Shown: positions 1-9,460 of the stretch, in pieces
Layout of the letters: each line of letters begins with the position of its first letter
Position numbering within the stretch: the first letter of the stretch is position 1
DNA from: Acidimicrobium ferrooxidans
GTDB taxonomy: Bacteria; Actinomycetota; Geothermincolia; Fen-727; Anoxymicrobiaceae
Assembly: GCA_020723485.1 (NCBI GenBank)
Contig: DYIU01000001.1
Span: forward strand, 1,003,779-1,067,778
DNA: 64,000 nt
Direction of reading: 5' to 3'
The notes under the pieces: model-generated
Seen by the model: the letters and a program-made list of their open reading frames with translations, nothing else
Database searches by the model: none
Told to the model about the DNA's origin: nothing
Translations under genes and position numbers: made by a program

Positions 1-645
1 TTCCCCCACAACCCGACAGGCTTTCTTCCCGAACGGACGGAGTTCGAGGAGATGGTCGGGATCGCCCGGGGGTGCGGGGCCCACCTCTTCTCAGACGAGA
101 TGTACAGGCTGCTCGAGCTCGACCCGGCGGCGCGCCCGCCGGCGGCCTGCGACCTCTACGACAGGGGCATCAGCCTCTTCGGGATGTCGAAGTCGTTCGG
201 GATGGCGGGTGTGCGGATAGGTTGGCTGGCGGCCAGGGACCAGGCTCTCTACCGCAGGATGGCTGCGTTCAAGGACTACACGACCATCTGCTCCAGCGCC
301 CCGAGCGAGGTGCTCTCGCTCATCGGCCTGCGAGCACGGGATACCATCGTCGGCCGGAACCTCGAGCGGATACGGCGCAACCTGGCGCTGCTGGACTCTT
401 TCTTCGAGCAGAGAGCGGAGCTGTTCGAGTGGGTGAGACCCGCGTGCGGGACCATCGCCTTCCCGAGGCTGCTCAACGGCCCGGATACCCCGGAGCTGTG
501 CAGGGAACTCCTTGAGAGGACCGGCCTTCTACTGCTCGATTCCACCCTTTTCGACTACGGCAGGCGCCACCTCAGGATCGGCTTCGGCAGGGAGGACATG
601 CCTGAAGCCCTGGCTCTCTTCGAGGAGAACCTCGACGGCATCTAG
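1..645 (+). CDS. Class I/II (fold-type I) PLP-dependent aminotransferase, 5'-truncated
   Basis: The frame is open from the first base, so the N-terminus lies outside the window; 214 residues are visible. They carry fold-type I aminotransferase landmarks in order: PHNPTGFLP (the NPTG substrate/cofactor loop, residues 2-10), SDEMY (Asp and Tyr contacting PLP), SKSFGMAGVRIGW with the Schiff-base lysine near residue 64, and HLRIGFGRE with the carboxylate-binding arginine near the C-terminus. The family transfers amino groups between amino and 2-oxo acids in the cytoplasm. The substrate cannot be read from this fragment. The stop TAG shares bases with the stop of the convergent cooS gene: the two genes overlap within CTAG at 642-645. 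Confidence 0.9.
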   Translation, partial: FPHNPTGFLPERTEFEEMVGIARGCGAHLFSDEMYRLLELDPAARPPAACDLYDRGISLFGMSKSFGMAGVRIGWLAARDQALYRRMAAFKDYTTICSSAPSEVLSLIGLRARDTIVGRNLERIRRNLALLDSFFEQRAELFEWVRPACGTIAFPRLLNGPDTPELCRELLERTGLLLLDSTLFDYGRRHLRIGFGREDMPEALALFEENLDGI

Positions 646-2549
646 AGGCCGAGCTTGGTCCGGTTGGCCTCGATGTGGGCGAGCATGTTGTCCGCCGCCT
701 CGGCCGCGTCGGTCTCGATGTGCAGCACGCCGCCCGTCACCCCGGGGAGGTCCGCGGTCAGCAGCTGCACCAGGTCCGGCGCCCCGGTGACGAAGGGCAC
801 CGGGTTGACGTAGGTGTACAGGCCGAACGCCAGCGCGAATATGGCGTCGATTGTCGCTTTCTGCTCCATGTACTCGGGAGCGCAAGCCACGAGCGGGAGG
901 TCCGGGACGGGGACGTCCCCCAGCGCGGCGGATATCGCGGCGATGAGGTCGGCGACACGGCCGGTGTCGGTGCACGTGCCGTAGCTCAGCACCGGCGGCA
1001 CGCCCAGGCTCTCGCAGAGCCCTTTCAAGCCCGGCCCGGCGAGCTCCGCGGCCTCCGGCAGGCACAGGCCGGCGACCTGGAGGGCGCCGTTCCCGCAGCC
1101 CATCGAGAGAACAAGGATGTCTCGCTTGATGAGCTCCTTCGCGACCGCGACGGTATGCACGTCCTGGCCGCTATCCCTGAGCGAAGTGCAGGATACGAGC
1201 CCGGCGACTCCCCTGATGGTGCCGCCCTTGATGGCGTCGAGCAGCGGGTCTAGAGTCCCGCCCAGGGCATCGAGGATGCTCTCGGCGCAGAAGCCTACGA
1301 CGGCCTCGCTCATGGGCAGCCCGGTCACCGGCTCGACCGCCTTGCTCCGGGTCTTGTAGTTCTCGATGGCCATGTCCAGTAGCCGGGCCGCCTGCTCGGC
1401 TGCTTTCTCCGGGATGTAATCGAGCCTGTCGGTGACTCCCTCGAAGGCTACCAGGTCGCTCACCGGAATCAGCTTGACGCTGTACTTCTCGGCGTAGATG
1501 GGGTCTATCGGCATGGAGCAGTTCATGTCGCAGGCGAAAAGGTCGACACACCCGGAGGCGAGGACCGCCTCCTGCATTATCCAGTTGCCGGTGAAGCCGT
1601 AGAACGCGTCGTCCATCTCCCAGCGCTGTATCATCTCCTGCCCGGTCTCTATGTTGGCGATGACCCGAAGGCCCTTCGCGCCCGCGGCCTTAGCTTTCTC
1701 CTGCCACTCGGGAAGGCGCGCGAGCTGTACCATGGCGAAGCCCAGGAACGGCTCGTGCCCGTTGGGAAGGGCGTTGACGTAGTCGCCGTCGAGCACGCCC
1801 AGGTCCACCCGCATCCTGTGGGGACGCGGCAGGCCGTAGAGGATGTCCATTCCGAACTCGTTCACTATCTGGCTCTGGTAGGCCATTGCCACCGACATGC
1901 GCATCGCCTTGAGCGCGAGGCTCTGGTAGAAGCCGTCCACGTTGGTCAGGCACGAGCTGGTGGCGCGCATCATCTCCCCGTAGATCCCCCCCGGGAAGAT
2001 GTCGAGCTTGCGCCAGGTCTCTTTTCGCTCCGGCGGGGCGAGCGCTTCCACCACAGCGCTCGGCTCGTCCGCTTTACGGTTGAAGTCCGCCGTCACGAAA
2101 TCGCAAAGGCGCATCGCGACGTCGCCGTCCGAGCCCGAGACGTCCACGCCCAGCCGGCCCGCGAAATCGCGCAGCTTGCCGGGCTCGCTTATCTCGTACG
2201 GGGTCTTTCCCCCGGCGGTCGCCCGCAGGGTCTTCACCGTCTGCTCGGTATGGTAATGGTACGTCGCCGCGCCCAGCACGTTGCGCAGGAGCATCATCCG
2301 CATCGCCATGCCGTCGGCCTTGATGCCGCACGAGCCGCGCTTGTCCTTTTCGGCGTCGGCCCTGCACGGGCCGTTGGAGCACAGGTCGCAGCGCACCCCG
2401 CCCATGCAGAACGGGCACCGCTTGTCAGGGTCGCCGCCCATTCCCTGGGCCTCGAACCGGTCCCAGAGGTTCGTTATGCCGTCAGGTTTTATCCGCTCGT
2501 TGTAGACCCTTCGCACCGACTCGTGGTAAGAGATTCTCTCCTGCTCCAT
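642..2549 (-). CDS. cooS: Ni-dependent carbon monoxide dehydrogenase catalytic subunit (CooS family), altered C-cluster site
   Basis: CooS-family enzymes interconvert CO and CO2 at a Ni-Fe-S C-cluster and pass electrons through B- and D-clusters. I start it at ATG 2549 (MEQERIS) because GGAGG lies just upstream; a frame to 2603 is open but has no such site. Numbering from this start, CPFC at residues 45-48 fits the CX2C type of D-cluster, and Cys54, 57, 62 and 74 fit the B-cluster. Of the C-cluster ligands, His265 (NGHEP), Cys344 (DMNC), Cys454 (VSCTS), Cys485 (MGCGNG) and Cys526 (YGTC) are present. The segment that normally reads CCTGNE reads IETGQE, so Glu301 replaces the ligand equivalent to Cys295 of Carboxydothermus CODH-II. 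A 5-residue insertion follows. No cooC, cooF or ACS gene is nearby. CO oxidation should not be assumed. Confidence 0.9.
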   Translation of the reverse strand: MEQERISYHESVRRVYNERIKPDGITNLWDRFEAQGMGGDPDKRCPFCMGGVRCDLCSNGPCRADAEKDKRGSCGIKADGMAMRMMLLRNVLGAATYHYHTEQTVKTLRATAGGKTPYEISEPGKLRDFAGRLGVDVSGSDGDVAMRLCDFVTADFNRKADEPSAVVEALAPPERKETWRKLDIFPGGIYGEMMRATSSCLTNVDGFYQSLALKAMRMSVAMAYQSQIVNEFGMDILYGLPRPHRMRVDLGVLDGDYVNALPNGHEPFLGFAMVQLARLPEWQEKAKAAGAKGLRVIANIETGQEMIQRWEMDDAFYGFTGNWIMQEAVLASGCVDLFACDMNCSMPIDPIYAEKYSVKLIPVSDLVAFEGVTDRLDYIPEKAAEQAARLLDMAIENYKTRSKAVEPVTGLPMSEAVVGFCAESILDALGGTLDPLLDAIKGGTIRGVAGLVSCTSLRDSGQDVHTVAVAKELIKRDILVLSMGCGNGALQVAGLCLPEAAELAGPGLKGLCESLGVPPVLSYGTCTDTGRVADLIAAISAALGDVPVPDLPLVACAPEYMEQKATIDAIFALAFGLYTYVNPVPFVTGAPDLVQLLTADLPGVTGGVLHIETDAAEAADNMLAHIEANRTKLGL

Positions 2550-2660
2550 GTGACCCTCCAGGTTTTCAGGCTGTGACTTACTCGCGAAGATTAACGTTCC
2601 CATCTGGTTCGCATAAGAGATTGATTACCCACGTTCACTTTCGTTCCTGCATCAGTGCGA

Positions 2661-2830: not shown

Positions 2831-3400
2831 GTGGACGGGAAGCACGGGCTCAGGGCGGCGTGGTCGGTGCCCATCAGGCTGCTGGCGGCCTTGCTGGTGT
2901 TGGCGGGCGCCGGGCTCTGCCAGCTGATCATCCTGCAGGGAGTATTCGAGCCGTTCCACGTAGTCCACAGCGGCTCCATGGCTCCCGGCATCGCGACCGG
3001 CGACGCGGTCGTCGTGAGAGAGGCCGACGCAGGCAAGCTCAAGGTCGGCGAGGTGATAGTCTTCAGGGACTGGGATAACAAGGAGAACCTGGTGGTCCAC
3101 AGGGTCGTGGGCATCGAGGACATGGGCTACACCAGGTACTTCAGCACCAAGGGCGATGCCAACCCCGAGCCTGACCCCGTGAGGATAACGCCGGGCTCCA
3201 TCGTGGGGGTCTGCTGGGCGAGGGTCCCCAGGTTCGGCTACCTCATGGAGGACCTGGTCTCGCCGATGGGGTTCGTCTTCTTCGTCCTGGTCCCAGTTGT
3301 CGGCGGCTTCTGCCTCGCGCTGGCGCACGACCTGGCGGAGCGCGCCGTGCTCAGGCGCCACCGCAGGCGCCGCTTCCATCCGATGCCAACTGCCGCGTAG
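2831..3400 (+). CDS. Signal peptidase I, S26B (ER/archaeal, SipW-like) type
   Basis: This 189-residue membrane protease removes signal peptides from exported proteins. It begins with GTG and has a membrane segment at about residues 15-38, then HSGSMAP with the nucleophile Ser49. VVHRVVGI supplies His90 where ordinary bacterial enzymes have lysine, and KGDANPEPDP supplies Asp109. Ser-His-Asp is the S26B arrangement of archaea, the ER and Bacillus SipW. A second membrane segment lies at about residues 143-167, followed by a basic tail RRHRRRR. No obvious dedicated substrate such as a TasA- or pilin-like protein is adjacent, so it may act generally. Start choice is moderate; the ribosome site lies in a possible hairpin. 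Confidence 0.88.
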   Translation: MDGKHGLRAAWSVPIRLLAALLVLAGAGLCQLIILQGVFEPFHVVHSGSMAPGIATGDAVVVREADAGKLKVGEVIVFRDWDNKENLVVHRVVGIEDMGYTRYFSTKGDANPEPDPVRITPGSIVGVCWARVPRFGYLMEDLVSPMGFVFFVLVPVVGGFCLALAHDLAERAVLRRHRRRRFHPMPTAA

Positions 3401-6664: not shown

Positions 6665-6702
6665 CCTCCCCGATTGTTCATTCCTGAAAGGAGTTCATGA
6701 GG

Positions 6703-7980
6703 ATGGAGGATTACAGGCAGATGTGGGCGGACATCGGGGTAGACCTGAAAGCGCATGACGGCCTGCTGGAGGTGCTCCCACCGCTTTTCGGCGATGTGAT
6801 AGTGAACCAGCCCAACCGGCCCGCCAGGATGGCTTACTTTGACGCCTTCTTCGGGGAGATCCATGGAAGGCGCATCTGGGAGCTGGTCCAGCAGCAAAAG
6901 AGCGGCAGGAAGGTGGTCGGGGCATTCTGCACCTATGTCCCGGAAGAGATCGTCACGGCGCTCGGCTCCAGCTGCGTCGGGCTCTGCGGAGGGGCCGAGG
7001 TCGCCTTCGAGGCGGCCGAGCAGTATCTCCCGCACAACACGTGCGCCCTAATAAAGTCCTCCCTCGGCTTCAAGCTGGGAAAGGTCTGCCCGTACTTCGA
7101 GGCGAGCGACCTCGTGATAGGCGAGACCACGTGCGACGGCAAGAAGAAATACTACGAGATACTGGGGGAGATGGCCGACGTCTACGTGATGCAGCTCCCC
7201 CAGATGAAGCAGGAGGCCGACCGGGAGATGTGGCGTGGGGAGGTCCGCAGGTTCACCGCGAAGATGGAGGAGCTTACAGGTGAGAAACTCGAGCTCGACA
7301 GGCTTAAGGAAGCGGTGAAGGTATCGAACGATAAGCGGAAGGCGATGCAGCGGTTGGCGGAAGTAAGGAAGGCGGCCCCACCCGTCATCTCCGGCAAGGA
7401 CGCGCTCTTTATCAACCAGATAGCGTTCTTGGACGAGCCACGGAGGTTCGCGAACAAGGTGAACGAGCTCTGCGACGAGCTCGAGAAGCGGGCTGCGGCC
7501 GGCGAGGGGGTAGCCGAGGCCTCGGCGCCGCGCATCCTCCTTTCGGGGTGCCCCATGGCCATCCCCAACTGGAAGGTCCCGCACATCGTCGAGTCAGCCG
7601 GAGGGGCGATCGTCATGGAGGAGCTTTGCACCGGGAGCCGTTACTACAGCCACCTGGTGGACGAAGCGGCGGCTGACCTGGATAAGATGCTCGACAACAT
7701 CGCGGACAGCTACCTGGACATCGACTGCGCGGTCTTCACGCCGAACGACGAGCGCGCGGAGAACATAGTCCGCATGGCCAAGGAGTACTCCGTCGACGGT
7801 GTCATGTACTACTCCCTGCTCTTCTGCTCGCCGTACAGCGTGGAGGCGTACAAGGTCAGGAAGGCGGTCGAAGGGGCCGGGGTCCCGCTCCTGTACGTCG
7901 AGACGGACTACAGCCAGGGAGACGCCCAGCAGATAGCCACGCGGGTCGAGGCTTTCCTCGAGATGCTCTCCAGTAAGTAG
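6703..7980 (+). CDS. Double-cubane-cluster-type anaerobic reductase (2-hydroxyacyl-CoA dehydratase/HgdB superfamily, YjiM-like)
   Basis: The 425-residue protein matches the YjiM branch of the HgdB/BcrB superfamily: CTYVPEEIV, LPHNTCALIKSS, PYFEASDLVIGETTCDGKK, LSGCPMAIPN and the C-terminal ETDYSQGD followed by TRVEAFLEML. Ten cysteines sit mostly in these blocks. Characterised relatives (from Carboxydothermus) carry an [8Fe-9S] double cubane and reduce small substrates, with electrons pushed by an ATP-hydrolysing activator. No activator ATPase gene is visible in the window. ATG 6703 is nine bases from AAAGGAG; ATG 6697 is also possible. It has its own promoter and is transcribed alone. The natural substrate is unknown. 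Confidence 0.88.
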   Translation: MEDYRQMWADIGVDLKAHDGLLEVLPPLFGDVIVNQPNRPARMAYFDAFFGEIHGRRIWELVQQQKSGRKVVGAFCTYVPEEIVTALGSSCVGLCGGAEVAFEAAEQYLPHNTCALIKSSLGFKLGKVCPYFEASDLVIGETTCDGKKKYYEILGEMADVYVMQLPQMKQEADREMWRGEVRRFTAKMEELTGEKLELDRLKEAVKVSNDKRKAMQRLAEVRKAAPPVISGKDALFINQIAFLDEPRRFANKVNELCDELEKRAAAGEGVAEASAPRILLSGCPMAIPNWKVPHIVESAGGAIVMEELCTGSRYYSHLVDEAAADLDKMLDNIADSYLDIDCAVFTPNDERAENIVRMAKEYSVDGVMYYSLLFCSPYSVEAYKVRKAVEGAGVPLLYVETDYSQGDAQQIATRVEAFLEMLSSK

Positions 7981-7984
7981 GACT

Positions 7985-9283
7985 CTATGCCGGCACTGGC
8001 AGCTCGCCGTTCTGGCGCCCGGTCTCTTTCAGGAAGAAAGCGACCACAAGGGCGATAACGAACAGGACCACCAGCGCTATCATGGACCAGTAGAACGGCG
8101 TATCGCCGATGCCCTTCATCGACTCCATGAGGAAGGTCACCGCGACGCCGCCCGCGTTCCCTAACAATAGGAGTATCGAGGTCGCAGTGCCGGTCAGCGC
8201 GTGTCCGGTGGTCTCTTCTGCCATGGTCAGCACCAGCGGGTAGGCGGCGAATAGGAAGAATCCCATGAACACTACCACGACATACACCTGCGGAGTGCTG
8301 TTCAGCTGGGCCATCAGGAAGATGGTCGGTATAGCGACGGCGGCGGCGAGCAGCAGGAAAGGCTTGCGCTTCATGAAGTGGTCTGAAAGCGAAGGTATGA
8401 CGACGCAGCCGACCACTCCCGCTATCACCATGACCGCGCCGATGTAACCCGCCGTGTCCTGCGATATCCCCTTCGGCTTCAGGATGCGGTCTATCAGCTG
8501 GAGTATCCCCACGAACGCGCCGTTGCCGATGAAGAGTATCACGCAGAGGAGTCGGAAGTCGTACAGCCCGAAGATCTTGCGGAAGCTCTTGAAGTCGATC
8601 GCCGCGCTCTCGCTCTGGAGCTCGGCCTCCGTACGTTTGGGGGGTTTGGGCGGGGCAGCCTTCCCGAAGATGCCGAACACGACCGCGCCGGCCGCGGCGG
8701 CGATGCTGTAAAAGAGCACCAGCCAGCGGACCGCGCCCAGATTGTCGCCGAACCCGTCCAGTAGAGCGGGCGTCAGGGCAAGCGCGACGATCATCCCCAG
8801 GAACAGCGCCAGCGTCGCAAGCCCGGTGGCGAGCGCCGATTCCTCGGTCGGGAACCACGCGGCGACCATCTTGGTGATGCTGTTCAGCACAAACGGCTGC
8901 CCGACGGCGATGCCTATCATGCCGATGAGGACAAGCGGGTAATTACCCGCGAAGAGCCTGAGGAACGAGAACCCGGCCGTCAGTACCGCCCCCAGCATCA
9001 CCGCGTACCGGAACCCCTTTCGGTCGATTATTATGCCCGCCGGGATCGACACCGGGATGTAGATGAGCGGGAACATCACAGCTAGGAGGGTAATGCTGGA
9101 CTCGCTCTGGCCCATGAGCTCGGCGATACCTGTCAGCTTCGCGGTCGAGGTGGTTATCGAGGCGTAGTTCAGCCACATCAACTGTGTAAGAGCCCCGACG
9201 AGCATGAAGGCCGCCAGCACGACCCAGCGGTAACGGTACAGGCCGTAGGTCTCCTCGGGTGCTCCAGTGGATTCCGCTTCCAT
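7985..9283 (-). CDS. Major facilitator superfamily transporter (FLVCR-like)
   Basis: This 432-residue protein has about 12 membrane segments, split by a cytoplasmic loop near residues 195-230 (KAAPPKPPKRTE). MFS signatures appear as DRKGFRYAVM after segment 2 and DHFMKRKP in the second half. The pattern resembles FLVCR-type members that move small organic molecules, but the substrate cannot be inferred. GGGAGG lies before ATG 9283; the frame runs open to 9415 without support. It is convergent with the double-cubane reductase gene, four bases apart. Confidence 0.88.
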   Translation of the reverse strand: MEAESTGAPEETYGLYRYRWVVLAAFMLVGALTQLMWLNYASITTSTAKLTGIAELMGQSESSITLLAVMFPLIYIPVSIPAGIIIDRKGFRYAVMLGAVLTAGFSFLRLFAGNYPLVLIGMIGIAVGQPFVLNSITKMVAAWFPTEESALATGLATLALFLGMIVALALTPALLDGFGDNLGAVRWLVLFYSIAAAAGAVVFGIFGKAAPPKPPKRTEAELQSESAAIDFKSFRKIFGLYDFRLLCVILFIGNGAFVGILQLIDRILKPKGISQDTAGYIGAVMVIAGVVGCVVIPSLSDHFMKRKPFLLLAAAVAIPTIFLMAQLNSTPQVYVVVVFMGFFLFAAYPLVLTMAEETTGHALTGTATSILLLLGNAGGVAVTFLMESMKGIGDTPFYWSMIALVVLFVIALVVAFFLKETGRQNGELPVPA

Positions 9284-9460
9284 GCCGCGCCTCCCTGCCC
9301 AGGCCCCGGTCGCGCCGGGGCGACGCCACGGACTCATGTCTGCGGGTAAATCATATTTCACCGGCTCCGGGCGGGGCAACAGGCGAGGTTCTGATCGATT
9401 CTCCTCGATATGCATTGCGTCCTGTTATATAGTTATCGCGACTCGATTCATGGGGGGTAA

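Follow-up and report, generated by a model that had tools for sequence, protein, structure and literature searches.

Does a CooS-family protein in which a cysteine ligand of the C-cluster has given way to glutamate still act as a CO dehydrogenase (CODH)? This question is raised by a complete CooS-family gene in the 64,000-nucleotide stretch of DNA analysed here (the window), whose open reading frame (642-2603, minus strand) comprises 653 aa and whose product scores 703 bits against the NCBIfam model TIGR01702 for the anaerobic CODH catalytic subunit (cut-off 478). Since orthologues of the protein begin at residue 18-19 of this frame, the ATG with its codon ending at 2549 is more likely to be the start than the upstream ATG, which would lengthen the protein by 18 aa, to 2603. 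The glutamate thereby becomes residue 301, matching the numbering in the first-pass annotation of this DNA. The features relevant to the question are given below, with their counterparts in CooS-V of Carboxydothermus hydrogenoformans (PDB 7b7q, 7b7t, 7b95, 7b97 and 7b9a, all one sequence; PMC9311411):

645..2549, minus strand: CODH-like protein of the CooS-V type (structural group D-1); 635 aa when counted from the likely start, with the stop codon at 642-644
2406..2417, minus strand: Cys45-X2-Cys48, type III motif of the bridging (D) cluster (alignment; PMC9311411, PMC6344411)
2328..2390, minus strand: B-cluster cysteines C54, C57, C62 and C74 (alignment)
1755..1757, minus strand: His265 (CooS-V His259), cluster ligand (alignment)
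1647-1649, minus strand: codon of Glu301, at the Cys295 position; the CooS-V counterpart Glu295 is a cluster ligand (PMC9311411)
1635..1652, minus strand: IETGQE in place of CCTGNE (alignment; Glu in 89 of 89 subgroup rows)
1548..1550, minus strand: Cys334, in 88 of 89 subgroup rows; CooS-V and most canonical CODHs have Ala here
1518..1523, minus strand: Asn343-Cys344 (CooS-V Asn337-Cys338; alignment)
1188..1190, minus strand: Cys454 (CooS-V Cys449; alignment)
1095..1097, minus strand: Cys485 (CooS-V Cys480; alignment)
972..974, minus strand: Cys526 (CooS-V Cys521, the persulfide cysteine; alignment)
864..866, minus strand: Glu562 (CooS-V Glu556, equivalent to Glu494 of the hybrid cluster protein, HCP); canonical CODHs have Ser or another residue here

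The window protein was aligned with 88 close relatives (together the subgroup), a more divergent member from the window's class (L023), CooS-V, the CODH of Thermococcus sp. AM4 (6t7j) and ten canonical CODHs from the window's phylum, among them the host's own second copy. The alignment confirms the exchange of Cys295 for glutamate that the first-pass annotation had read from the sequence. The protein contains the segment ...RVIANIETGQEMIQRWEMDDAFYGFTGNW... and also ...ACDMNCSM; Ile300-Glu301 align with the Cys-Cys of CCTGNE, and an insert of five residues follows before the DMNC cysteine, as annotated. No other cysteine takes the Cys295 position in the alignment, Cys334 and Cys340 being aligned elsewhere. 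The full C-cluster ligand set of one His and five Cys is thus incomplete by this one position, while H265, C344, C454, C485 and C526 are present. The cysteines of the D-cluster (C45, C48) and the B-cluster (C54, C57, C62, C74) are likewise kept, again as had been stated. Conservation of Glu301 in all 89 subgroup sequences and in CooS-V rules out a sequencing error, a lone mutant or chance. CooS-V also has the five-residue insert, which is therefore no novelty of the window protein.

The first-pass annotation had further pointed to CODH-V, and this lead proved right by sequence as well as by fold. Among solved structures, CooS-V is the best match of the window protein (7b7q; 672 bits, E 6.9e-201, 51% identity), the next CODH reaching 366 bits. 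Likewise, an AlphaFold model of the protein (pLDDT 87.9, pTM 0.91) has 7b9a/7b7q as its top structural match (TM 0.95, rmsd 1.7, 50% identity), followed by canonical CODHs with TM values of 0.91-0.93 and 29-34% identity. All eight active-site residues of CooS-V (H259, E295, N337, C338, C449, C480, C521 and E556) recur unchanged in the window protein, which thus carries the complete ligand set of this relative, Glu included; the corresponding H265, E301, N343, C344, C454, C485, C526 and E562 are kept in 89 of 89 subgroup rows. The canonical set, in contrast, has Cys in place of E301, Gln in place of N343 and in most cases Ser in place of E562. In addition, Tyr97 stands opposite the acid-base His of 11/11 canonical CODHs, whereas Lys564 is kept. 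The bridging-cluster motif C45-X2-C48-X5-C54 corresponds to the C-X2-C-X5-C spacing (Gly to Cys41) that the type III D-cluster of structural group D-1 shows, so that the signature of this group is complete: besides this D-cluster type, Glu stands in for Cys1 and Tyr for the acid-base His, and Lys is retained. In a quick tree with long branches, whose canonical side consists of one named CODH and the phylum's own CODHs, a branch with SH-aLRT support of 100 parts the subgroup and CooS-V from the canonical enzymes.

What does this relationship imply for function? CooS-V contains an Fe/S/O hybrid cluster, has no Ni, neither oxidizes CO nor reduces CO2 and reduces hydroxylamine very slowly, with a kcat of 0.13 per s (Jeoung et al. 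2022, PMC9311411). Homology, ligand set and predicted fold make us confident that the window protein belongs to the CooS-V type (clade D, group D-1) within the prismane/CODH family, with an HCP-like hybrid cluster, and is not a CO dehydrogenase. By analogy with the solved relative, from which the cluster type and the absence of Ni and CO activity are taken, its cluster is very probably of the iron-sulfur-oxygen kind and CO is very probably not its substrate. This agrees with the earlier suggestion of a non-CO-oxidising redox enzyme using a Glu ligand, which the likeness to CooS-V supports (PMC9311411). Mechanistically, the homodimeric CODH scaffold would carry no Ni,Fe C-cluster but an HCP-like [4Fe-3S-nO] hybrid cluster, presumably ligated by His265, Glu301, Cys344, Cys454, Cys485, Cys526 and Glu562. 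Electrons would enter via a bridging [2Fe-2S] cluster, which is probably what Cys45/Cys48 bind, as in CooS-V, and via two [4Fe-4S] clusters. They would probably come from ferredoxin, although the donor, like the physiological substrate, is a matter of speculation. Most likely the protein would serve either as a reductase working at low potential or as a redox sensor, its target being a small oxidised molecule such as hydroxylamine, another nitrogen oxide or an oxidant. Two points speak against this reading: at 51% identity to CooS-V, the sequence leaves room for another substrate, and the subgroup conserves further residues, Cys334 and His465 among them, that CooS-V lacks.

It is conceivable in principle that the protein is a functional Ni,Fe CODH which tolerates Glu for Cys295. 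The CODH scaffold is whole, the protein retains His265, the acid-base Lys and the remaining C-cluster cysteines, and the score against the CODH family model is far above the cut-off. However, CooS-V has the same ligand set and lacks Ni and CO activity, and the C295E exchange leaves CODH-II deficient in Ni and without activity (PMC9311411). Together with Tyr at the acid-base His and the presence of the HCP-type Glu562, this renders a functional Ni,Fe CODH highly improbable. It is less far-fetched, but still rather unlikely, that the protein acts as a redox or gas sensor or as a regulatory protein instead of a fast-turnover enzyme. The CooS-V cluster rearranges with the redox state and turns substrate over very slowly (PMC9311411), a genomic survey ties clade D to regulators (PMC13056359), and Rrf2 and HTH genes adjoin some of the related loci. 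On the other hand, the protein has neither a signalling domain nor a constant partner, and the immediate neighbours lie on the opposite strand in about 45% of the loci.

We give a similarly low probability to the idea that the protein stands in for HCP where HCP is absent, providing the same defence against nitrosative or oxidative stress. HCP was looked for in the host genome and none was found. Among 31 genomes of the window's class, the CooS-V-type gene is present in 21 and HCP in six, and no genome has both (Fisher test, p 3e-4 by genome and 0.008 by genus, kinship beyond genus being ignored). Elsewhere, 39 of 44 carrier genomes have no HCP over the cut-off, a proportion that says little without a matched background. 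The pattern is clear in the class but is not replicated in Dehalococcoidia, where 15 of 245 genomes carry the gene, 15 carry HCP and two carry both, i.e. the two are statistically independent (p 0.23); replacement of HCP is therefore kept only as a rival idea. Moreover, Methanolobus, Methanococcoides and Desulfacinum possess HCP along with a CooS-V-type gene, and clade D is the CODH clade that most often co-occurs with HCP in a published survey (PMC13056359). Biochemistry also speaks against it, as CooS-V turns hydroxylamine over about 100-fold less efficiently than HCPs and works at potentials lower by about 300 mV, and NO reduction was not seen (PMC9311411). A hybrid-cluster redox protein of CooS-V type thus stays the preferred reading.

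The surroundings of the gene yield no substrate, because it is solitary in the window: it is convergent with an aminotransferase-like gene (1-645, plus strand) and divergent from a signal-peptidase gene (2831-3400, plus strand), which rules out an operon-based assignment of function there. Farther along, the window contains a DUF2804 protein (PF10974; 4294-5196, minus strand), a 2-hydroxyglutaryl-CoA dehydratase D-component family protein (PF06050, 418 bits; 6697-7980, plus strand) and, adjoining the latter, an MFS-type transporter-like ORF (7985-9415, minus strand). Most clade D genes had no constant neighbours in the published survey (PMC13056359). In 24 of 80 related loci (L047, L062, L072, L089 and 20 more), the gene is adjoined by its commonest neighbour, a Fer4 ferredoxin-like protein (~260 aa, 4Fe-4S dicluster domain at the N-terminus), in several cases only 12-60 bases away. 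This protein is a possible electron partner of the subgroup, and a homologue is encoded elsewhere in the host genome (contig C2). A small cupin protein (13/80) and an Rrf2-family regulator (7/80) are further neighbours. The host's canonical CODH gene adjoins an ACS gene (contig C7, 40963-45097), which makes it probable that the carbonyl branch of the Wood-Ljungdahl pathway is present in the host. Such a separate canonical CODH next to ACS would be expected if the CooS-V-type protein is an auxiliary enzyme.

The Cys-to-Glu change is real but already published as a group-wide character. Structural group D-1 was defined by Inoue et al. 2019 (PMC6344411), and exchange and insert, being common to this whole group, are not new to the window protein; Jeoung et al. 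2022 describe the exchange as a shared derived character of the CooS-V subclade (PMC9311411). What is added here is the compact subgroup of the window protein, its spread and its extra conserved residues Cys334 and His465. Members of the subgroup are 66-85% identical to the window protein. Cys334 is found in 88 and His465 in all of its 89 rows, neither occurring in CooS-V or L023, and Cys340 in 57. The subgroup extends over Actinomycetota, Chloroflexota, Thermodesulfobacteriota and WOR-3 and, among archaea, over Lokiarchaeota and other Asgard groups, Thermoplasmata and methanogens such as Methanolobus, to name those of note. As bacterial phyla are intermixed with archaeal ones on the tree, the data suggest that it moved between bacteria and archaea by transfer, with misbinning as a possible alternative, the records being mostly metagenome bins. 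One related gene appears to be frameshifted (L021) and another locus carries a second partial copy (L073); both may be assembly faults. That the Cys334/His465 proteins form a functionally distinct CooS-V branch, spread over bacteria and archaea and, in the window's class at any rate, replacing HCP against reactive nitrogen or oxygen species, is a conjecture that we consider less probable still than replacement of HCP as such.

Databases still name CooS-V-type proteins CO dehydrogenases, and thus genomes like that of the host may be assigned one more CO-oxidising enzyme than they have. A 2026 marine CODH survey leaves such sequences out of the true Ni-CODHs on the grounds set out above for CooS-V and group D-1. 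The group occurs widely among uncultured anaerobes and archaea and is strongly conserved, and the host lineage, with the gene in some genera and HCP in others, offers a place to test its physiological role.

Taken together, the window protein can be placed among known systems as follows. With canonical Ni,Fe CODHs (CODH-II, R. rubrum CooS, D. vulgaris CODH) it has the scaffold, the B-cluster and five of six C-cluster ligands in common, but differs by Glu at Cys295, Tyr at the acid-base His, Glu562 and Asn343, at about 30-35% identity. With HCP it shares Glu, His and Cys cluster ligands, including the equivalent of HCP Glu494, and a weak family score (TIGR01703, 24 bits against a cut-off of 360.8); however, it is built on the longer CODH scaffold with a bridging cluster. 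CooS-V matches it in the Cys295-to-Glu exchange, the five-residue insert, the CX2C bridging motif, the eight active-site residues, the fold and the presence of a canonical CODH in the same genome, and differs in lacking Cys334, His465 and Cys340, which the window subgroup has, the last only often. From structural group D-1 of CODH clade D (Inoue et al. 2019, PMC6344411), finally, the window protein does not differ in any defining feature.
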